DNA of 64,000 nt from Dugong dugon (lineage: Eukaryota; Chordata; Mammalia; Sirenia; Dugongidae), in the NCBI GenBank assembly GCA_030035585.1, contig CM057469.1:114182650-114246649 (forward strand). Reading direction: 5' to 3'. The translations under genes and the position numbers were made by a program. The notes under the pieces were generated by a model. That model saw only the letters and a program-made list of their open reading frames with translations. It searched no databases and was not told the origin of the DNA. Below are positions 1,459 through 63,010 of this stretch, piece after piece. Numbering within the stretch: the first letter of the stretch is position 1; every line of letters starts with the position of its first letter.

Positions 1459-1988
1459 TGTCTTAGATATCTACTGCTGCTCTAACAGAAATGCCACAAG
1501 TGGATGGCTTTAGCAAAGAGAAATTTATTTCCTCACAGTACAGTAGGCTAAATGTCCAAATTCAGGGCGTTAGCTCCAGGCGACGGCTTTCTCTCTCTGT
1601 TGGCTCTGGAGGAAGAGCAATCTTCCCCTGGACTAGGAGATTCTCTGTGCACAAACCTCAGGTCCAAAGGATGCGCCATGCTCGCAGTACTGCTTTCTTG
1701 GTGGTATGAGCCCTGCCCCTCCCTATCCCTCTATACACTTCTCTTTTTTTTTTTTATATCATGAAAGAAACTGCCTCAAGACAAAATCCAATCCCGTAGA
1801 TTGAGTCCTGCCTCATCAACACAACTCCCGCCCATCCCCTCTCATTAACATCATAGAGGCAGGATTTACAACACAGAGGAAAATCACATCAGATGACAAA
1901 ATGGTGGACAATCACAAAATACCAGGAATCATGGCCCAGCCAAACTGATACACACATTTTTTTGTGGGATGCAATTCAATCCATGACA
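1459..1988 (-). mobile_element. Solo LTR, ERVL-MaLR (MLT1-like), minus strand
   Basis: Read on the minus strand it begins TGTCATGGATTGAATT and ends CTAAGACA, the termini of the MLT1-like LTRs that also occur at 28907, 33371 and 40414. It is bounded by perfect 5-bp direct repeats 'catgc' at 1454-1458 and 1989-1993, the TSD size expected for ERVL/MaLR integrase. No internal retroviral region adjoins it, so it is a solo LTR left by LTR-LTR recombination. Short ORFs inside are on the opposite strand and not meaningful. Confidence 0.88.
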
Positions 1989-1993
1989 CATGC

Positions 1994-4456
1994 TTTGGTA
2001 AAACACGTTCTGATAGATTAAATAATTTAGTATTAGAAAAACGATGACAGTAAGCGATACCAGAAAGGAGAAGGGTTAATAAATAGTAACCTCCTTGTGT
2101 TTGACAAGATATTAGAGTAACAAAAGCAGATATAAAGCTTGAAGACAGTCTTATATATGTCTTCAGAACCTAACTACATGGAATGTACCTTTTGAGTGGG
2201 CAGGTGAGTGAACATTAATGGATACCACTAAGACATTTTTCTTGCCCTACTTGTAACAAGACTCAAGTGTGACCTGGATGGCTCCCTGGTGCTTAGATTT
2301 ATACTCTTCTCAGAGACATTGGATATTGTATTTCACTACAAAGAGCTAAAAATATTGCAAGCATTATTTATAAATCTTTTTGAAAAATGCATTTTCTTAG
2401 CAGCAACTATGGCAACAGGGAACTCGAAATGACACTGGAAAAGAATTGAGCTCAGCTGCAATGGGTAATGCACACAGGATTTATATTTTACCACTGTCTA
2501 TATTTTGAAACCAGAGAAACCAAAATAAACATTCAATATATACAATCACTTTCTGTATCTAATGCATGTGTTCCATTTAAGTAACATTTAAATGTTATGA
2601 TATAAAGTACATTTACTTAATCATCATGAAAAATTTATAAACATAAAGCAAGTAGAGGTGAATGAAAATCATTGTATTTCTAGGGTACAGCCAAATTTAC
2701 ATACTTGCAATAATACTAGCATTTCTAGCCATAGGGCTCATATTACTGCCATTTTTTATAAATTCCATAAACTATTTCTGGAAATGAGGATATGAGCATT
2801 CTTTTTAAGTGTTTAATTTGTAGCAAATATGATAGTTTTTCCTCTTCTACATATTACTTTAAGAACACACCTGCAGTAGCCATTTCTAGTGTATTAGGCA
2901 CAAAATTGGTTTATTTCTTACCAGTCATTTGTCCATTTTCTTAATAAGAAAAATTTCTGCTAGCTATAATCTTTCTTACTAAAATACATATATGTACGTA
3001 TATTTTTTTTTCTTAAAATTAAAAGCTGATGCAAGTTACAGAATTAATCATCAATTCTTATTTGGATTAGTACTTTTAGACTGTTGTTAGCAAGTCCAGG
3101 CAAATTCCTTCTCCAAGAATAATACTGAAATGTGTTGCAATCATGAAAATTGGTATATACCATTACATGGCTTGACCATCATTTAATTATTTAATATAGT
3201 TTGTTGGAAGTCTTTGTTTCTGATTTTTCCCAAGATTTTCATGGTTTTACACATTCTGTAGCAAATACCCTTGTAGTTAAATCTTGATGCACATGCTTGT
3301 TTATAAGGATTTATTGCTAGATATACAGATATTAGGTCAAAGATTATAGGCATTTTCAAGATTTTAATGCCTATTGAAAAAAATTCCCATCTGAAAATAT
3401 GTAGAAATTTGCAAATATGATACAGGATTTTTTCCCAATACTAAATATTAGACTTTTTACAAAAAGATTTATATGTTTCCGTTTGATAGGTAAATAAAAT
3501 TGTATATTATTATTTCAACTTGTATTTTTTAAATACTAATAGCATTCAATGTTTTTATATAACTTTTTTTTTCTTTTTTGGGGGTTACATGTTCACTTTT
3601 TGTGCCTATTTATTTAGTAAAAATATTACTTCCCTTGTAATAACATATGTTGCAACATTTTTCTGGATCTGTGGTATGCCTTTTCATTTTATCTACGGTG
3701 TGTTGTTCCTGGACACAATTTTTAAAAGTTATGTACTAAAATAAAACAGACAAACAAAAAAACAAAATGCTTACTCCGTTTGGTTTTATGGCTAATTAAT
3801 ATAAAAATACCCAAAATTCTTTTCAACCAATAAAGAATGTGTAATTTGATTTTGTCTCTTGTAACAGTATCAACATCGTTGTTTTCATATCAGGGACATC
3901 GCTGATCTCAAGCACTTTGCTTCAGAGGCCTCCTAGAGGGAGCTGAGTCACCCCGTCACAGTTCCCATCATACTTAACTGTTTCCTGGACGTTGATTTTC
4001 ACAAGTAAATGTAAAAAGACACTCAAGGTGGGGTTGGCCACACTCTTTTTGGCTCAGAATGAAACTTGACTTTGGTAGAGGAATGCCTGTTGACTTTTCT
4101 AGTTCTGAGTCAGAAGGCAGTGACCGGCCAAGGCCAAGCCTCTGAGCCCCCCATTCTGTTTCTGTTCATAAGGTGATGCTTGGGCTCAGCACTGGAGACA
4201 GGGTTTCCTGACTTGGAAAACTTACCACAGACCCATTAGCTATTCTGGCATTAGTAAATCTCGCTGTCCACACCACCTTCCTCATATTTCTTTTCTATCT
4301 GTAGGAAGATTTTCTTCAAGAATTTTAAATGCTACCAGAGAACTACATAAATTCCCTCTCTCCCTTTTACTAAAAAAAAAAAAAAAAAGTTTAATTTTTT
4401 ATATGGATTTTATATTATTATTAAAATAACAAACAGTTTGACTTATTTAGATGGAC
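1994..4456. other. Long AT-rich stretch without recognised gene
   Basis: About 2.5 kb with poly-A and poly-T runs and no recognisable coding frame. One 74-codon open frame at 3520-3744 lies in T-rich sequence and looks like chance. The part at about 3895-4260 is visibly more GC-rich than its surroundings and non-repetitive; it is listed separately. Confidence 0.5.
3895..4260. other. GC-richer non-repetitive island (possible conserved noncoding element)
   Basis: This block is noticeably less AT-rich than its flanks and matches no repeat family I recognise. It has no long ORF in either strand and no clear splice-bounded exon. It could be a conserved noncoding element or simply old unique sequence. 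Confidence 0.25.
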
Positions 4457-17530: not shown

Positions 17531-17690
17531 TAATGATGTACTAGAATTATGTACTTCAGACTTAGAAGTCTTAGAGGTCAGACTGAGAAACTAGAGTGGG
17601 ATAGATTTTGCCTCTCTGGTTTTTATAATGACTGTGTGAGTTTGTGTATACTAATTCTGCAACAAAAAATAATTGTGTTAATACAAACAT

Positions 17691-19054
17691 GTTGTTGTTG
17701 TTAGGCACCATTGAGTCAGTTCCAATCCATAGCGACCCTATGTACAACAGAACCAAACACTGCCCTATCCTGCGCCATCCTCACAATCATTGTTATGCTT
17801 GAGTCCATTGTTTCAGCCACTGTATCAATCCATCTTGTCGAGGGTCCTCTTTTTTGCTAACCCTCTACTTTATCAAGCATGATGTCCTTCTCCAGGGACT
17901 CATCCTTCCTGATAATATGTGCAAAGTATGTGAGATGTAGTCTCGCCATCCTTGTTTCTAAGGAGCATTCTGGTTGTACTTTTTCCAACACAGATTTGTT
18001 TGTTCTTTTGGCAGTTCATAGTACATTCAGTATTTATTCACCAACACCACAATTCAAAAACGTCAATTTCTTCTTTGGTCTTCCTTATTCGTTGTCTAAC
18101 TTTCGCATGCACATGAGGCGATTGAAAACACCATGGCTTGAGTTAGGTGCACCTAACTTCAAGGTGACATCTTTGCTTTTCAACATTTTAAAGATGTCTT
18201 TTGCAGCAGATTTGCCCAATGCAATCACCTTTTGATTTCTTGACTGCTGCCTCCATGGATGTTGATTGTGGGTCCAAATAAAATGAAATCCTTGACAGCT
18301 TCAACCTTTTCTCCTTATATCATGATGTTGCTGACTGGTCTGGTTGTGAGGATTTTTGTTTTCTTTATGTTGTGTAATCCATACTGAAGGCTTTGGTCTT
18401 TGATCTTCATCAGTAAGTGCTTCAAGTCCTCTTCACTTTCAACAATCAAGGTTGTATCATCTCCATAACACAGGTTGTTAATGCATCTTCCTCCAATCTT
18501 GATGCTCCATTCTTCTTCAAAAGTTCATCTTCTCAGATTTTTGCTCAGCATACAGATTGAATAGGTATGGTGAAAGGATACAACCCTGACACAAACCCTT
18601 TCTGACTTGAAAACACTCAGTATCCCCTTGTTTCATTTGAATGACTGCCTCTTGATCTGTGTACAGATTCCTCATGAGCACAATTAAGGGTTCTGGAATT
18701 CCTACGCTTTGCAATGTTATCCAGAATTTGTTAGGATCCACTCAACTGAATGCTTTTGCATAGTCAACAAAACACAGGCAAACATCTTTCTGGTATTCTC
18801 TACTTTCAGCCAGGATCCGCTGACATCAGCAATGATATCCCTGGTTCGAAGTCCTCTTCTGAATCCAGCTTGAATTGCTGGCAGTTCACTGTCGATACAC
18901 TGCTGCAGCTGCTTTTGAATGATCTTCAGCAATATTTTCTTGCCTGTGATATTAATAACATTGTTTGATTATTCTGCATTCAGCTGGATCACCTTTCTTG
19001 GGAATAGGCACAAATATGGATCTCTTCCAGATGGTTGGCCAGGTAGCTGTCTTC
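17691..19054 (-). pseudogene. RTE reverse transcriptase, C-terminal half (broken)
   Basis: On the minus strand an open piece at 18517-18741 reads RKGLCQGCILSPYLFNLYAE, a reverse-transcriptase finger/palm signature (Q-G-x-x-L-S-P). The piece upstream (18717-18932) keeps AIQAGFRRGLRTRDI. Frameshifts separate them and the YADD region is degraded. The start of the protein is on the other strand because of the 5' inversion, so no contiguous ORF exists. Confidence 0.8.
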
Positions 19055-20831
19055 AGCAGGGCCACTCATAGTGGACAGGTTTCAGCTGAGATTCCAGACT
19101 AAGACAGAATAGGAAGAAGGACCCGGCAGTCAACTTCTGAAAAGAATTAGCCAATGAGAATCTTATGAATAGCAGAGGAACATTGTCTGATATAGTGCTA
19201 GGAGATGAGCCCCCCAGGTTGGAAGGTACTCAAAAGACAACTGGGGAGGAGCTGCCTCTTCAAAGCAGAGTTGACCTTAATGATGTGGTTGGAGTCAAGC
19301 TTTCGAGACCTTCACTTGCTGATGTGGCATGACTCAAAATGAGAAGAAACAGCTGCAAACATCCATTAATAATTGGAACCTGGAATGTACAAAGTATGAA
19401 CCTAGGAAAATTGGAAATCATCAAAAATGAAATAGAACATATAAACATAAATATCCTAGGCATTAGTGAGCTGAAATGGACTGATATCGGCCATCTTGAA
19501 TAGGACAATCATATCGTCTACTATGTCAGGAATGACAACTTGAAGAGGAATGGCATTGCATTTATCATCAAAAAGAACATTTCAAGATCTATCCTGAAGT
19601 AAAACGCTGTCAGTGATAGGATAATATCCACACACCTACAAGGAAGACCAGTTAATAAGACTCTTATTTCGATTTACACACCAAGCACTAAGGCCAAAGA
19701 TGAAAAAATTGAAGATTTTTACCAACTTCTGCAGTCTGAAATTGATCAAACATGCCGTAAGGATTCATTGATAATTACTAGTGATTGGAATATGAAATTT
19801 GAAAATGAAGAAGAAGAATGGGTATTTGGAAAATATGGCCTTGGTGATAGAAACGATGCTGGAGATCGCATGATAGAATTTTGCAAGACCAACGACTTCT
19901 TCACTGCAAATACCTTTTTTCACAAGCATAAGTGGCGAGGATACACGTGGACCTCACCAGATGGAATACATAGGAATCAAATCCACTATATCTGTGGAAA
20001 GAGATGACGGAAAACTCAGTATCATCAGTCAGAACAAGGCCAGGGGCTGACTGCATAAGAGACCATCAATTGCTCATATGCAAGTTCAAGTTGAAATTGA
20101 AAAAAAATTAGAACATGTTCACGAGAGCCAAAGTATGAATTTGAGTATATCCCACCTGAATGTAGAGACCATCTCAAGAACGGATTTGATGTGTTGAACA
20201 CTAACGACCGAAGACCAGACTAGTTGTGGAATGACATCAAGGACATCATACAGGAAGAAAGCAAGAGGTCATTAAAAAGACAAGAAAGAAAGAAAAGACG
20301 AAAATGGATGTCAAAGGAGACTCTGAAACTTACTCCTGAACTTTGAGTAGCTAAAGCAAAAGGAAAAACGATGAAGTAAAAGAACTGAACAGAAGATTTC
20401 AAAGGGCAGCTTGAGAAGACAAAGTAAAGTATTATAATGACGTGTGCAAAGAGCTGGAGATAGGAAACCAAAAGGCAAGAATACGCTCAGGATTTCTCAA
20501 GCTGAAAGAACTGAAGAAAAAACTCATGCCTCGAGTTGCACTACGGAAGGGTTCTACAGGGAAAATACTAAACACCACGGAAGCATCAGTAGAAGGTGGA
20601 AGGAATACACAGAGTCACTATACCAAAAAGAATTGCTCGACATTCAGCCATTTCAGGAGGTAGCATATGATCAGGAACCGATGGTACTGAAGGAAGAAGT
20701 CCAAGCTGCACTGAAGGCATTGGTGAAAACCAAGGCTCCCAGAACTGATGGAATAGCAATTGAGATGTTTCAACAAATGGCCGCAGCACTGAAAGTGCTC
20801 ACTCGTCTATGCCAAGAAATTTGGAAGACAG
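19055..20831 (+). pseudogene. RTE 5'UTR and apurinic endonuclease half (broken)
   Basis: This is the inverted 5' portion of the element. The non-LTR retrotransposon AP-endonuclease domain runs from about 19330. A stretch at 19768-20007 keeps ITSDWNMKF (the family's G/S-D-W/F-N active-site context) and TWTSPDGIHRNQIHYI (S-P-D/R-x-x-D/H region). Stops at about 19502, 19600, 20005 and 20220 break it. It ends abruptly at the twin-priming breakpoint before the RT core. Confidence 0.8.
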
Positions 20832-34772: not shown

Positions 34773-35105
34773 AATTGTTGTCAGCTGCTTTGGAGTCAGC
34801 CCCGACTCAGGGTGACTCTGTGTACAACCGAAAGAAATGCTGCCCAGTCCTACTTCATCTCCCTTATCAGTTGGAGATCAGAGCCTTGTGATCCATTGGT
34901 GTTTCTTTGTCTGACTTTCAGAAATAGATTGCTCGACCTTTCTTCCTAGTCTGGAAGCTCCGCTGAAACTCGTTCAGCATTACAGCAACACGCAAGCCTC
35001 CACTGATGGACAGGTGGTGACGGCACTTGAGATACCCTGGCTGGGAATCAAACCCAGGTCTCCCACATGGAAGGCGGGAGTTCTACCACTGAACCACCAT
35101 TCCCC
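34773..35105 (-). mobile_element. tRNA-Gly-headed composite SINE with RTE body, minus strand
   Basis: The best preserved copy of this composite. On the minus strand the tRNA-Gly-like head comes first: A box TGGTTCAGTGG (35096-35086) and B box GGTTTGATTCC (35054-35044), both near consensus, with TCC at the anticodon position. Then follow RTE 5'UTR-like sequence (including 'agtggaggcttgcgtgttgc' and 'agcggagcttccagacta') and the RTE 3' tail ('gagtcggggctgactc'). The flanks 'attcccaaaatt' and 'ttcccccaaatt' may be a loose TSD. Confidence 0.85.
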
Positions 35106-45745: not shown

Positions 45746-45849
45746 CAGGATATTGAACTAGAAGTTGTGGATTTATTGAGGCAAGGAAGAGGGATAATGG
45801 ATCGTTTTCCTTTTTTTTTTTTTTTTCTTTTAGACTCATCTATGTTGTC

Positions 45850-45960
45850 AACAGGAGCCCTGGTGGTGCAGTGGTTAAGAGAGAACCCAACTGCTAATGA
45901 ATCTATCAGCTGCTCCTTGGAACCCTATAAGGCAGTTCTACTCTATCCTATAGGGTTTCT
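45850..45960 (+). mobile_element. AfroSINE head/body fused to the RTE 5' end
   Basis: It has the A-box region and body 'tcctatagggttt' of a short-type AfroSINE, lacking the usual 'actcgacggcaa' tail. The missing tail and the shared TSD with the RTE 3' end argue that it belongs to the same inserted unit. The alternative is an AfroSINE truncated by a later RTE insertion. Confidence 0.75.
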
Positions 45961-46314
45961 CCCCCACTGGTCTGTCAGTTCGTTGTACTAGAGGGGCTTG
46001 CATGTTGCTGTGATTCTGGACGCTATGCCACTGGTATTCAAATACCAGCTGGGTCACCCACCGTGGACAGGTTACAGCTGAGCTTCCAGACTAAGACACA
46101 ATAGGAAGAAGGACCTGGCAGTCTCCTTCTGAAAAAAATTAGCCAGTGAACAATTTATGAATAGCAGCAGAACATTTTCTGATATAGTGCTGGAAGATGA
46201 GCCCCTCAGTTCGGAAGGCACTCAAGATATGACTGGGGAAGAGCTGCCTCCTCAAAGTAGAGTCTAGCTTAATGATGTGGATGGAGTCAAGCTTTCTGAC
46301 CTTCAATTGCTGAT

Positions 46315-48707
46315 GTGGCATCACTTAAAATGAGAAGAAACAGCTGCAAACATTCATTAATAATCAGAACATGGAATATACAAAGTAAGAATCTAGGAAA
46401 ATTAGAAATCTTCAAAAATGAAATGGAACACATAAACATGGACATCCTAGGCATTAGTGAGCTACAATGGACTGGTATTGGCCATTCTGAATCAAAAAAT
46501 TATATGGCATACATGGCCAGGAATGGCAAATTGAAGAAGAAGGGTGTTGCATTCATCATTAAAATGAACATTTTAAGATCTATCCTGAAGCACAATGTTG
46601 TCAGTGATAGGATAATATCCATATGCCTACAAGAAAGACCAGTTAATACTACTATTATTCAAATTTAATGCACCAACCACTAAGGCCAAAGATGAAGAGA
46701 CTGAAGATTTTTGCCAACTTCTGCAGTCTGAAATTGATGAAACATGCAATCAAGATGCATTGATAATTACCAGTGATTGGAATGCTAAAGTTTGAAACAA
46801 AGAAGGATCAGTAGTTGGGAAATATGGCCCTGGTGCTAGAAATGATGCCGGGGATCACATGACAGAATTTTGCAAGATTACTTCTTCATTGCAAATACAT
46901 CTTTTCAACAAGATAAACAGAGACTATTCATGTGGACCTAGCCTGATGGAATACATAGGAATCAAATTGACTACATCTGTGGAAAGAGACAATGGAAAAG
47001 CTCAATATTATCAGTCCAAACAAGGCCAGGGGCCTACTGCAGAATAGACCATCAACTGCTCATATGTAAGTTCAAGTTGAAGCTGAGTAAAATTAGAATA
47101 AGGCCACCAGAGCCAAACTACCTTCTTGAGTGTATCCCACCTGAATGTAGAGACCATCTCAAGACTAGATTTGACACATTTGAACACTAATGACCAAAAA
47201 CCAGATGAGTTATGGAATGACATCAAGGACATCATACATGAAGAAAGCAAGAGTTTGCTAAAAAGACAGGAGAGAAAGAAAAGACCAAAATGGATGTCAG
47301 AAGAGACTCTGAAATTTGCTCTTGAACATCGAGTAGCTAAAGAGAATGGAAAAAATGACAAAGTAAAAGAGTTGAACAGAAGATTTCAAAGGGCGCCTTG
47401 AGTAGACAAAGTAAAGTATTATAATGATATGAGCAAAGACCAGGAGTTAGAAAAGCAAAAAGGAAGAACATGTTTGTTACTTCTTAAGCTGAAAGAACTG
47501 AAGAAAAAACTCAAGCCTTGAGTTGCAGTATGGAAGGATTCTACGGGAAAAATATTAAACAACACAAGAAGCATCAAAAGAAGATGGAAGGAATACAGAG
47601 TCACCATACCAAAAGGAATTGGTCAATGTTAAATCATTTCAAGAGGTAACATATGATGAATAACTGATGGTACTGAAGGAAGAAGTCCAAGCTGCAGTGA
47701 AGACACTGGCAAAAAACAAGACTGTTGACGGAATACCAATTGAGACGTTTCAACAAACGATGCAACTCTGGAGGTGGTCACTCTTCTATGCCAAGAAATT
47801 TGGAAGACAGTTACCTGGCCAACTGACTGGAAGAGATCCATAATTGTGCCTATTCCATAGAAAGGTAATCTAACAGAATGCAGAAATTATTGAACAATAT
47901 CATTAATATAACAGGCAAGTAAAATTTTGCTGAAGATCACTGAAAAGCAGTTGCAGTAATACATTGACAGTGAACTGCCAGGAATTCAAGCTGGACTCAG
48001 AAGAGGATGTGGAACAAAGGTTATCATTGCTGATGTCAGACGGATCCTGGTTGAAACCAGAGAATACCAGAAAGATGTTTCCCTGTGTTTTATTGACTCT
48101 TCAAAGGCATTCGACTGTGTGAATCATAACAAATTATGGATGACATTGCGAAGAACGGGAATTCTAGAACTCATAATTGTGCTCATGTGGAAGTTGTACA
48201 TAGACCAAGAGATGTTGTTCGAACAGAACAAGGAGATACTGCATGGTTTAAAGTCAGGAAAGGTTTGTGTCAAGGTTGTATCTTTCACTATACTTATTCA
48301 ATCTGTATGCTGAGCAAATAATCCAGTAAGATGGACTATATGAAGAAGAATGGGGCATCAGGATTGGTGGAAGACTCATTAACAACCTGTGTTATGCAGA
48401 TGACACAACCTTGCTTGTTGAAAATGAAGAGGACTTGAAGCACCTACTGATGAAGATCAAGGACTACAGCCTTCAGTATGGATTACATCTCAACATAAAA
48501 CAAATTCTTCACAACTGGATCAATAAGCAACATCATGATAAATGGAGAAAGATTGAAATTGTCAAGGATTTAATTTTACTTGGATCCATAATCAATGTCC
48601 ATGGAAACAGCAGTCAAAAAAATCAAATGATGCATTGCACCGGGAAAATCTGTTGCAAAAGACCTCTTGAAAGTGTTAAAAAGCAAAGATGTCACTTTAA
48701 GGACTAA
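46315..48707 (+). pseudogene. RTE endonuclease / reverse transcriptase pseudogene
   Basis: The endonuclease part (46315-46668) reads IIRTWNIQSKNLGKLEIF, ILGISELQWTG and IISICLQERPVN, with the family's N and E active-site context. It then breaks: stop near 46666, TGA near 46794, stop at 47045. The RT part is in pieces. FIDSSKAFDCVNHNKLWM is at about 48092-48145, and an intact YADD catalytic box at 48393-48404 lies just before LLVENEEDLKHLLMKIKDYS. Multiple frameshifts (including about 47400-47640 and 48300) make it non-functional. RTE proteins normally nick DNA and reverse-transcribe their own RNA and that of AfroSINEs sharing the tail. Confidence 0.85.
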
Positions 48708-49184
48708 GGTGGGCCTGACCCAAGCCATGGTGTTTTCAGTCACCTCGTATGCATGAGAAAGCTGGACAATGAATAAGGAAGACTGAAGGAGAATTGACGC
48801 CTTTGAATTACGGTGTTGGAGAAGAATATTGAATATACCATGGACTGCCAAAAGAATGAACAAATAAGTCTTGGAGGAAGTACAGCCAGAATGCTCCTTA
48901 GAAGTAAGGATGATGAGACTTCGTCTTGCATGGTTTGGACATGTTGTCAGGAGGGATCAGTCCCTGGAGAAGGACATCATGCTTGGTAAAGCAAAAGGTC
49001 TTGATAAAGGCTGGAAGACCCTCAACAAGATGGATTTACACAGCAGCTGCCACAATGGTCTCAGGCATAACAATGATTATGAGAATGGCACAGGACCATG
49101 CAGTGTTTCCTTCTGTTGTATGTAGGATTGTTATGAGTAGGAACTGTCTCCATAGCAATGGGTTTGGTTTGGGTATGTTGTCTA

Positions 49185-49399
49185 TAGGAGCCCTGGTGGC
49201 ACAGTGGTTAAAGCATCTGGCTGCTAACTCAAAGGTACATGGTTCAAAACCACCATCCACTCTGCAGGAGAAAAATGTGGTAGTCTGCATCTGTAAAGAT
49301 TTACAGCTTTGGAAACCCTATCAGTGCAGTTCTGTTCTGTCCTATAGAGTCGCTATAGTTGGTATTGACTCAATGGCAGTGCATTTGTTTGTTTTTTGG
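49185..49399 (+). mobile_element. AfroSINE, long type, at the same target site
   Basis: The head 'ggagccctggtggcacagtg', the long-type insert 'aggagaaaaatgtggtagtc' and the tail 'ttgactcaatggcagtgc' are present. The flanks 'tatgttgtcta' (49174-49184) and 'tatgacgtcta' (49400-49410) are an 11-bp TSD with two mismatches. Its left TSD copy is also the right TSD copy of the SINE-RTE unit. Confidence 0.9.
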
Positions 49400-49410
49400 T
49401 ATGACGTCTA

Positions 49411-49866
49411 CAAAAACCTGTTCTAAACTTTCCATTACTAAAACAATGTATTTGGGAAAATAAAATACAGCATTCACATGTATTTTATCCTCCTCACTGG
49501 TGGAATGAATTTCCAGGGCCTAGCATTTTATAATGCTTTTATGGTATAGGAAAATGACATGATTAAATTATCAAAATATTAAAATTATACTTTATCCATT
49601 ACAGAAATAAAGCAGTAGTAACTCAATTCATAATTTCCTTATGTATTCTTATTCATTAAGAATTTGTATTTATAAGTGACAATAATCTACTTTTTAAAAA
49701 ATGACATAATTTGAAAGACAAAAAGTGGAACTCATGGATGGAAAGATGCAAAGAAAATGTAAATTTAGGGATCTATTTCAGGACTCAAAATTTTTCTTCT
49801 TATTATTTTTTCTCTATGGTTTTTTTCCAATTCTCTTTCCTCTCCATTCTGGGATTAAAAAAAAAA
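49411..49866. other. AT-rich sequence, nothing recognised
   Basis: No gene or repeat identified. It ends in an A-rich run that begins the next SINE's target site. Confidence 0.45.
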
Positions 49867-49874
49867 ACAAAAAC

Positions 49875-50007
49875 CTGTTGCCATCAAGCGACCCTATCGG
49901 ACAGAGGAGAACTGCCCCATAGTTTCCAAGGAGCGCCTGGTGGATTTGAACTGCCATCCTTTTGGTTAGCAGCCGTAGCTCTTAACCACCAGGCCACAAG
50001 GGTTTCC
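49875..50007 (-). mobile_element. AfroSINE, minus strand (first of a tandem pair)
   Basis: 'ctgttgccatcaagcgaccc', 'gcgcctggtggatttgaact' and 'tagctcttaaccaccaggcc' are present. TSD 'acaaaaac' at 49867-49874 and 50008-50015. A short deletion removes part of the tail ('gattccgactcatag'). Confidence 0.88.
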
Positions 50008-50016
50008 ACAAAAACA

Positions 50017-50171
50017 CATTGCTGTTCAGTCGATTCTGACTCATAGTGACCCTATAGGACAGAGTAGAACTGCCCCATAGGGTTTCTAAAACCGAGGAGC
50101 AGCTGGTGGATTTGAACTGCTGACCTTTTGGTTAATAGCCAGATTCTTAACCACTGTGCCACCAGGGCTCC
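50017..50171 (-). mobile_element. AfroSINE, minus strand (second of a tandem pair)
   Basis: 'ctgttcagtcgattctgact', 'gcagctggtggatttgaact' and 'ttaaccactgtgccaccagg' are present. It sits about 10 bp from the previous copy in the same orientation, but its sequence differs enough to be a separate insertion rather than a duplication. Confidence 0.9.
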
Positions 50172-60409: not shown

Positions 60410-62086
60410 ATATAGAGCAAATTATAGACCAAATCTCATTAATGAACAATTCAAAGATTATATAAAAATAATACCAAATAAATTATATTGATGTAAAAAA
60501 TATGTCTAAGTAGTACTCATTACATAATGAAGGAGTTGATAAATAAATAAATATATAAATGTTTACATATATAAATCTATCAACACAATCATACATCCAC
60601 AATTTAGTGAGAAATTAAATGAGAAGGCATTTGATAAAGTGCAGTGGCCATATATAATAAAACTCTAAATAAAAATGGAAGAACACTAAAATTGACAGCA
60701 AATATAAGTGTCAAACTACTAAAAGCATTTCCAGTAATATCAAGAGTTGGACAGGGATACCCGCTAGCTCCATTCTTTAAATCCACATTGTTTTGCATGA
60801 TCTAGTGATTACAATGAGAAAATGAAATAACAGAAAAGTAAAGATAATACCCTGTTTTTTGTGATAATATTAGAGACTAGGGAAAAGTCATAAAAATTCA
60901 TTGAAAACTTTCAGATGTTGTCTGCATACAAGGTAAATACCTTCAAAAATATTACCTAACCTCTTTTCTATTCCAGCAATAATTACCTAAAAAAACAGAT
61001 GGACATTTTTTAAAAAAAAAAAAAACTCCCATTCAAAGCTACAACAAAACCTATACAATGCTTACGAATGACATTCATAAAAAATGTTCCAGAAGAAACT
61101 GTGAAGAAAGCTCTGACATCTTTTTGAGGACATAAATACAATTTAAACGAATAGAAAGTGATAATATGCTCTTGAACAGGAGGCTTATATCTTCAAAACT
61201 GACTTCAAATTTAAAATAATTATGAAGGCAGCTGGTTGTGAATTGTTTTTCTTTCTTTTTCTTTGGGTGGGTGTGGGGGGAGGAGAATGCAGATGACCTT
61301 ACAGTTTGTAAGAAAGAATAATTACATAAGAAAACCAAAGATATATTTGCTAAAAAAACAAATGAAAGAAGGGAATAATTTACCAGATATTAGAAAACTC
61401 ATACATTTACTTCAGTTAAATCTATTTGGAAGTTGGGGGAAAAAAAAAGAATAAACTATCAGTGGACTAAAAAAATAGAAAATTAAGAAAAAACCCAATG
61501 TCTATAAAAACATAAGTTATGAAAATTGCATTATTCCAATTCAGTGGGTGAAGAATGGATTATAAATTACTTAATAGCTGTTGTGGATAAAACCAGCTAG
61601 CTATCTAGGAGAGAATAAAACTGTATCTTCTGTCTTAAATGATATAGAATAATAAAGTCCAATTAGACCTCTGGAACTAGGTCCAGGAATCTTTAATGAT
61701 GAGAAATTTAACTTCAAAAACTTGAACTTTTTCTCTTAGAAGACTTTCGAACAAATAGCTTGAAAATGTAGAGGTGTGAGAAAAATGAATTTGGAAGAAT
61801 TTCGGAAAAAATAATAAATTCAGAAAAAAATAAATATTTGCATGTTTCAAAAATATATTCAAGCATTTTTCTGAATTATATGTATAATCAAGTTGTAAGG
61901 GAAATCTTTCTAACCAAAATTTGAAACACAAAAAGCCACAAAAGAAAATGGAGACTCGGTTGAGTACACAAAAATTTAAAGTGGATTGTAGAGACACCAT
62001 AAACAAATTAAAGAGCAAATAACAGATTTGGAAGCAACTTATTTCCATCAGCAAACAGATAATACCTCGAAAAATAAACCACCACT
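60410..62086 (+). mobile_element. Decayed ancient L1 ORF2 region
   Basis: Residual ORF2 reverse-transcriptase sequence: 'attatagaccaaatctcatt' (the YRPISL motif region), an [20 protein letters not shown] stretch at about 60618-60665, and an RVGQGYPLAPF-like stretch at about 60743-60775. Stops and shifts are frequent. It is much more diverged than the L1 at 4472. Confidence 0.8.
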
Positions 62087-62405
62087 CATCTCTCAGTTTA
62101 TTGTGGTATTGTGGTAGCTTGTGTGTTGCTATGATGTTGGAAGCCATATCACCGGTATTTCAAATATCATCATGATCACCCATGGTGGATAGGTTTCAGC
62201 AGAGCTTCCAGAGTAAGACAGACTAGAAAGAAAAGCCTGGTGATCTACTTCCAGAGCCAATAAAAACCGATGGATAACAAATCGACAACAAGGGTCTCAA
62301 ACATACCAATAATTATGAAGGTGGCACAAGAACAGGCAACTGTTTCTTCTGTAATACAAAATGTTTCCATGAGTCAGAGGCAAATTGATGGCAATTAACA
62401 ACAAC
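62087..62405 (+). mobile_element. RTE-derived nonautonomous SINE (no tRNA head)
   Basis: It consists of the RTE 5' end ('gcttgtgtgttgctatgatg', 'ttggaagccatatcaccggt', 'atggtggataggtttcagca') joined directly to the RTE 3' end ('gaaggtggcacaagaacagg', 'ttgatggcaattaacaacaa'), about 320 bp. It is an internally deleted RTE, and interrupts the ancient L1. Confidence 0.82.
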
Positions 62406-63010
62406 AAATAAAAATAAAGAAGTCATGTAAACTGACTTGAACAGGACCAACTACCTAACAGGAAAAGAATAGAAGATATGAATCAATAATTAACAGAAGA
62501 ACAAACTTAAATGCCCAAATACCATATGAAAAGGGGTTCCAACTCAAGAATACAATTCATCTTAAATAAATGTCCACATTAATGTAACAGCAAAATATCA
62601 GTTTAAACCTATCACTGAAACAAATCTGAAAAGCAAACAAAGAAAATCTTTAACAGTTGAAAGTATAAACTGATACAGTCCATTGGAAATCAATTGGGAA
62701 AAATTTCTAAAACTCACAAATACATATATTTCTGACAAGTAATTCCTAATTCCAGGTATTGTATTTTACAGAAATAACACCAAATACATTTAAAAAGGTA
62801 AGTACAATGTTATTTATTGTAGTATTCATTACAGTATAATGGTAAAAGACTGAAATAAAATTGAATTTCCATAAGTAATAGGATGATTAGCAACCTTATG
62901 ATACATCTATACCATGGAATACAAAGCAATACAAATAAACAGAAACACTTCCATGAGACATATATGAATGATCAAAGCAAAATGTACAAAAGACTATAAT
63001 TTGTGAAAGA
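62406..63010 (+). mobile_element. Decayed ancient L1 3' end
   Basis: It continues the old L1 after the inserted SINE. 'aatgtccacattaatg', 'atgatacatctataccatgg' and 'aatacaaagcaatacaaata' resemble the distal L1 ORF2 end ('...ATACAATGGAATACTA'). No open frame is left. Confidence 0.7.

Follow-up and report, generated by a model that had tools for sequence, protein, structure and literature searches.

Is a LINE that begins with a SINE head and ends with a SINE tail a single retrotransposed unit, or the outcome of several insertions stacked upon each other? This question is raised by a locus in the dugong genome at which a near full-length RTE element lies between the two ends of an AfroSINE, and which the initial annotation had interpreted as one retrotransposed SINE–RTE unit. 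Analysis of the window (the whole 64,000-nt stretch of Dugong dugon DNA under study) and of related loci in the same genome indicates that the RTE very probably inserted into the tail of an already resident AfroSINE, so that the locus consists of ordinary layered insertions and not of one fused unit. A literature search covering titles and abstract openings returned no report of this locus or of an RTE with an AfroSINE head.

The names AfroSINE and RTE1_LA, the latter denoting the partner LINE in elephant, are reportedly linked to the work of Gilbert et al. 2008 and are backed by Table 1 of PMC3747384. They are applied here to the dugong elements, whose membership was assigned by homology in this genome and not against a published Repbase or Dfam consensus. 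The elephant pair, a tRNA-derived SINE with an RTE-type 3′ end and its RTE partner, has the same arrangement as our locus; the latter differs in being assigned by homology within a single genome.

Structure of the SINE–RTE locus

The left part of the locus (45854-45960; this and all other features of the locus lie on the plus strand) is the 5′ part of a short-subtype AfroSINE and comprises the head, the body, and the first 11 nt of the tail block, as defined by a profile match and by the rejoining described below. A short-AfroSINE model built from the window's own copies was matched in nhmmer by 45854-45959 (45856-45959 over model positions 1-119 of 153) and also by the right end of the RTE (49100-49164, positions 92-152). 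The alignment revealed a further 17-nt loss in the left AfroSINE, which takes away box B. The box B pattern of the Pol III promoter is absent from 45854-45960 and was found in the second SINE of the locus at 49241. The left AfroSINE is a decayed copy, missing the intact box B expected of an active one. ARAGORN called no tRNA anywhere in the window.

Directly adjoining the SINE end at 45960 is an RTE-clade LINE (45961-49157) whose reading frame is broken and which has a tail block of its own. The LINE starts at 45961 with CCCCCACTGGTCTGTCAG. This is the intact family 5′ end: most of 39 other RTE copies whose 5′ regions were fetched from the same genome begin with CCCCCAC..GTCTGTCAG, with unrelated flanks, and a sense SINE against the RTE 5′ end was seen at 0 of these 39 loci. 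Identity to full-length copies in the genome is 80-84% over long stretches. Three of six frame pieces match Exo_endo_phos or RVT_1 (E values of 0.0034, 2.5e-4, and 4.1e-5), but all of these matches are too weak to reach Pfam's cut-offs. The initial annotation had recognized both elements; the SINE head and body, which it had placed at 45850-45955, and the RTE 5′ end, which it had placed at 45971, are moved to the coordinates given here.

Non-CpG divergence was 8/88 (0.091) for the left SINE, relative to a consensus of 27 short SINEs, and 103/1341 (0.077) for the RTE, calculated over five pieces. These values are alike, so that age neither supports nor excludes nesting; a single unit would show such near equality as well. 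A greater age of the SINE was considered as evidence for nesting and rejected, as it came from a poorer alignment and the 27-copy consensus gave equal divergence.

The 3′ end of the RTE

The RTE is closed at 49158-49173 by the SINE-type end GGGTTTGGTTT and not by the CAAC-type 3′ end of its family, for which GGCACCTAACAAC is typical in this genome. The resident AfroSINE contributes the segment 49158-49173, ATGGGTTTGGTTTGGG, as its 3′ tail, an end that is atypical of RTEs. The tail block was compared with 56 rows of SINEs and 78 of other RTEs. It follows the RTE pattern to about 49144, with RTE-like bases at positions 49139 and 49144, and the SINE pattern from 49158 on. The C at 49144 is shared by 64 of 78 RTE rows and 3 of 54 SINE rows, and the A at 49158 by 0 of 78 and 41 of 56, respectively; RTE sequence passes into SINE sequence in the stretch between them (49145-49157). 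The RTE kept its own tail block and then runs into the SINE end, and its 3′ end is read as a fused tail.

The AfroSINE-style tail, already pointed out in the initial annotation, was found in 0 of 69 other RTE tails, 39 of them from a genome-wide tail query and 30 from the set of loci fetched for their 5′ ends, and it is likewise absent from the four other RTE ends in the window, which are all of the CAAC type. Both a permissive pattern and inspection by eye assigned the 39 tails of the tail query to the CAAC type, and GGCA stopped the query match in all 39 scored copies other than our own, which are the same loci. The 5′-end set provided 31 tail rows among its 39 loci, reduced to 30 by leaving out L010, which is not a real tail; the 8 loci that gave no row are L011, lost through the position filter, and others that have no 3′ end in reach. 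A SINE-type tail as a general trait of an RTE subfamily was ruled out by the count of 0/69. A minority of AfroSINEs carry a CAAC tail (2/16, plus more among extra tails examined), so that both tail types occur among the SINEs.

AfroSINE shares its 3′ end with the RTE LINE. When 45854-45960 was rejoined with 49133-49173, the two pieces formed one AfroSINE match over model positions 1-152 of 153, gapless at the join, with a score of 98.8 bits compared to 66.3 and 29.3 for the separate pieces. The rejoined sequence unites a tRNA-like head, a body, and an RTE-like tail block in one unit of ~150 nt. The head and the tail of a SINE are thereby shown to flank the RTE: the host continues on the far side of its guest, as in a nested insertion, and it does so at parallel loci as well. 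That the left SINE ends inside the shared block would by itself be a coincidence of about one in four by our estimate, which weakens the argument for nesting.

Target sites and the second AfroSINE

Three copies of a 13-bp target site of the resident AfroSINE are present: a left copy, TATGTTGTCAACA (45841-45853), which abuts the SINE start, a middle copy, TATGTTGTCTATA (49174-49186), and a right copy, TATGACGTCTACA (49400-49412). The left copy matches the middle one at 11/13 and the right one at 10/13 positions, and the third pair matches at 10/13. Only 3 of the 63,988 13-mers of the window match the left copy at 11 or more positions, the left and middle copies included. The initial annotation had listed copies starting at 45841, 49174, and 49400; all three stand, with a site longer than it had given.

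Abutting the middle copy is a second AfroSINE (49187-49399), which belongs to the long subtype (164.3 bits to the long model). Its independent insertion at the same target site, as had been proposed from the outset, is supported; tandem duplication of one SINE by unequal crossing-over was ruled out because the two SINEs differ in subtype. The same order of target, RTE, target, SINE, and target recurs at two of the four loci with a SINE directly after the RTE tail: L009 carries three copies of AGTGTATATCA, and L017 carries three of AAGAACCCTC. At L035, a clean third target copy is absent, and L067 is seen without its left side. For 66 RTE tails, 300 nt or more of downstream sequence could be inspected: a sense SINE begins in the first 50 nt after four of these tails and in the next 250 nt after one, and four antisense SINEs lie within the 300 nt. 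Tandem SINEs that share target-site duplications (TSDs) at a reused site, in the order target, element, target, element, target, are known; our locus, with three copies of one target, resembles them with no difference seen.

T-runs precede all three target-site copies, and a TTTT lies ~10 nt upstream of the left one, as in the Tn-TA signature (PMC13295347). According to that source, Bov-B and Sauria SINE insertions favor a T-run ~10 nt before a TA step, and the TSDs of Sauria SINEs with T-rich tails begin with T, as does the outer target site at our locus. The T-runs before the three copies suggest that the tail of the first SINE may have recreated the target: placed before TATG, this T-rich tail would restore the Tn-TA pattern that RTE-clade endonucleases are reported to prefer (PMC13295347).

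SINE–RTE junctions elsewhere in the genome

At least 12 other loci in the host genome join a SINE to an RTE 5′ end, and all 12 were fetched. A first junction query (best 40 of 3086 candidates) returned, besides our locus, 39 matches to the RTE side only, from query position 36-52 on, and suggested that the junction was unique; this was refuted by later queries. A shorter balanced query (best 40 of 2275) yielded L048, L048 as query (best 40 of 4738) yielded L088-L092, and a query with the SINE cut 15 nt earlier (best 40 of 4685) yielded L095-L100. L093, where the RTE stands alone, and L094, where a complete SINE is located next to the RTE, were left out of the 12. The counts are lower bounds and, as the queries were aimed at the tail region, uninformative on preference.

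The missing remainder of the SINE is found beyond the RTE in 10 of the 12 loci, which means that those RTEs sit inside SINEs. In nine of them (L088, L089, L090, L091, L092, L095, L097, L098, and L099), it follows the RTE's own CAAC tail, which is the unfused state of RTE tail and SINE remainder. The remainder scored 42.1 bits at L095, 16.5 at L099, and 14.5 at L098, its addition raised the long-model score at L088-L092 by 3.4 to 13.0 bits, and the short stretch at L097 was judged by eye. In most of the nine loci, a repeat of ~9-13 bp of SINE sequence flanks the RTE on both sides. The repeats at L088-L092, picked by eye, match at 11/11, 11/13, 11/12, 11/13, and 9/13 positions, L095 repeats CTCTGTCCTGT exactly on both sides, and no clear flanking repeat was seen at L098. 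Internal deletions are present in the RTEs of L091 and L095, and the first 18 nt are missing from the RTE at L097. At L099, the junction lies nearly at the site of our locus, with the tails unfused. Since host SINEs of both subtypes and differing junction points are represented, these loci reflect independent RTE insertions into SINEs.

The five RTEs at L088-L092 entered essentially one SINE site, between T and ATGAGTCGGAA, with variants at L088 and L090. Since the query that retrieved them was itself designed around this junction, and since an RTE is also found in the body of a sense SINE (L072, one case in 67 other RTE tails), the shared site demonstrates no hot spot. Another of the 67, the second tail of L033, is located in an antisense SINE.

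At L096 (671-1266 of the reverse complement of the fetched stretch), a 3′-truncated RTE (query positions 1-569) without TSD or tail lies between two SINE parts that meet at CGCT and ATGAG with no duplication, the remainder scoring 11.7 bits. This is possibly an internally primed insertion. The other two of the 12 loci are L100 and L048, the latter of which has lost its 3′ part. L048 (486-982 of the reverse complement) contains a SINE, RTE query positions 1-303, and ~50 nt of other sequence, enclosed by two exact copies of ATTTACAGTTT, an 11-nt repeat. The ~50 nt may resemble L1 ORF2. L048 may be a patchwork or mixed insertion that originated by template switching.

Origin of the locus and alternative explanations

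The features described above can be accommodated in four steps. A short AfroSINE would have inserted, duplicating the 13-bp site, and a full-length RTE would then have entered its RTE-like tail block in sense orientation. The RTE probably entered between CCT and ATAGGGTCGCT with an 11-bp duplication, the nick position being an inference. The candidate inner TSD is ATAGGGTTTCT (45950-45960), 11 nt following a T-A step. Its start after T and its length resemble the 11-13 nt repeats at the nested RTEs of L088, L089, L091, and L092; the left ATAGGGTTTCT is present, and a right copy is indistinguishable from the RTE's own homologous block. At this stage, the RTE tail block with its CAAC and the SINE's copy of the block would have formed direct repeats of ~36 nt, and a deletion between them is the likely event that fused the two tails. 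Separately, the long-subtype AfroSINE would have inserted at the same target site. Nested retrotransposon insertions are known from studies of transposition in transposition (TinT; PMC3014933), in which the host is likewise split, with its two parts and its own TSD on the outside; our locus differs in that guest and host share a 3′ tail block and the two block copies appear fused.

A competing single-event scenario is template switching, in which reverse transcription would have passed from the tail of an AfroSINE RNA to an RTE RNA within the shared block, run to the RTE 5′ end, and then switched to the SINE head. Such a history would account for the TSD around the whole as well as for the SINE-type tail, the equal divergences, and the fact that the RTE 5′ end is intact, and L048, as a possible mixed insertion, would be in line with it. 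Chimeric LINE-1 insertions with other RNAs exist (PMC13174262), and they resemble our locus in having a non-LINE piece 5′ of the LINE, in the same orientation, with a TSD around the whole. At our locus, however, the non-LINE piece resumes past the 3′ end of the LINE, in the manner of a split element, and two switches would have had to land such that head and tail make up one complete SINE. Moreover, nested insertion at the DNA level is the reading for 10 of the other 12 two-sided loci, so the SINE–RTE junction calls for no special event. We therefore regard template switching as very unlikely, and the single retrotransposed unit of the initial annotation is not upheld. A variant of nesting, in which the SINE end exposed at a nick annealed to the RTE RNA at its homologous block, would do without a deletion, since a CAAC tail would never have been made. 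It fits the absence of CAAC at our locus, and L096 provides the same left boundary, CGCT next to ATGAG, with no duplication and an RTE joined internally (query position 569) to the SINE remainder. Sequence past the nick should be SINE-derived in this case, yet it is RTE-like at 49139 and 49144, and we consider this variant unlikely.

The initial annotation had further raised the prospect of a LINE with an external Pol III-type head. A related reading is a mobile RTE family co-transcribed from a SINE-derived promoter. The position of the head directly at the RTE 5′ end and the at least 12 other SINE–RTE contacts would be in line with such a family. It is already contradicted, and extremely improbable, because SINE subtypes and junction points differ among the loci, 10 of 12 have the rest of the SINE on the far side of the RTE, and none of the 39 other RTE 5′ ends fetched is abutted by a sense SINE. 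The head also lacks box B, and runs of at least four T occur nine times on the sense strand of 45854-49173, the first of them at 46175; such runs are expected to stop Pol III. The notion of a LINE headed by a Pol III SINE can be set aside as a false lead.

With nested insertion and tail collapse as the preferred reading, the locus illustrates how an insertion between tail-sharing elements can come to look like a chimera after collapse of the repeated tails. A more speculative extension, which we hold to be unlikely, is that the LINE-derived tail of AfroSINE serves its own LINE as a preferred landing pad, and that at our locus and L096 nicked SINE DNA may have primed RTE RNA through homology or microhomology. 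If true, the borrowed tail of a SINE would shape where its LINE inserts.

Other RTE- and SINE-derived repeats

Several further repeats in the window and in the fetched loci combine RTE and SINE features. On the minus strand, 17690-20831 is an RTE whose 5′ part is inverted, with query positions 76-1840 in plus and 1833-3183 in minus orientation from 19054. It has ATGTTTATATT and ATGTTTGTATT on its two sides, and the arrangement resembles the product of twin priming by an RTE-clade LINE. A short internally deleted RTE at 62079-62417, in which the 5′ end is joined to the 3′ tail, has its own AAAAATAAA duplication and resembles the RTE1-N1_LA type listed in PMC3747384. The minus-strand repeat at 34783-35105 has a tRNA-like head, which scores 46.9 bits with Rfam tRNA and was not called by ARAGORN. 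Short stretches from the RTE 5′ region come next, and then a 3′ tail of the RTE type; similar copies are present at L041 and L017, and the repeat appears to be a SINE with an RTE-derived middle body. In many of the copies at L009-L047, the RTE at ~130-200 nt in matches positions 78-135 of the long AfroSINE model, which suggests that the middle body of the long subtype came from the RTE 5′ end. Finally, two antisense short AfroSINEs are arranged head to tail and almost without a gap at 49871-50171 (minus strand), possibly another case of a tail reused as target.
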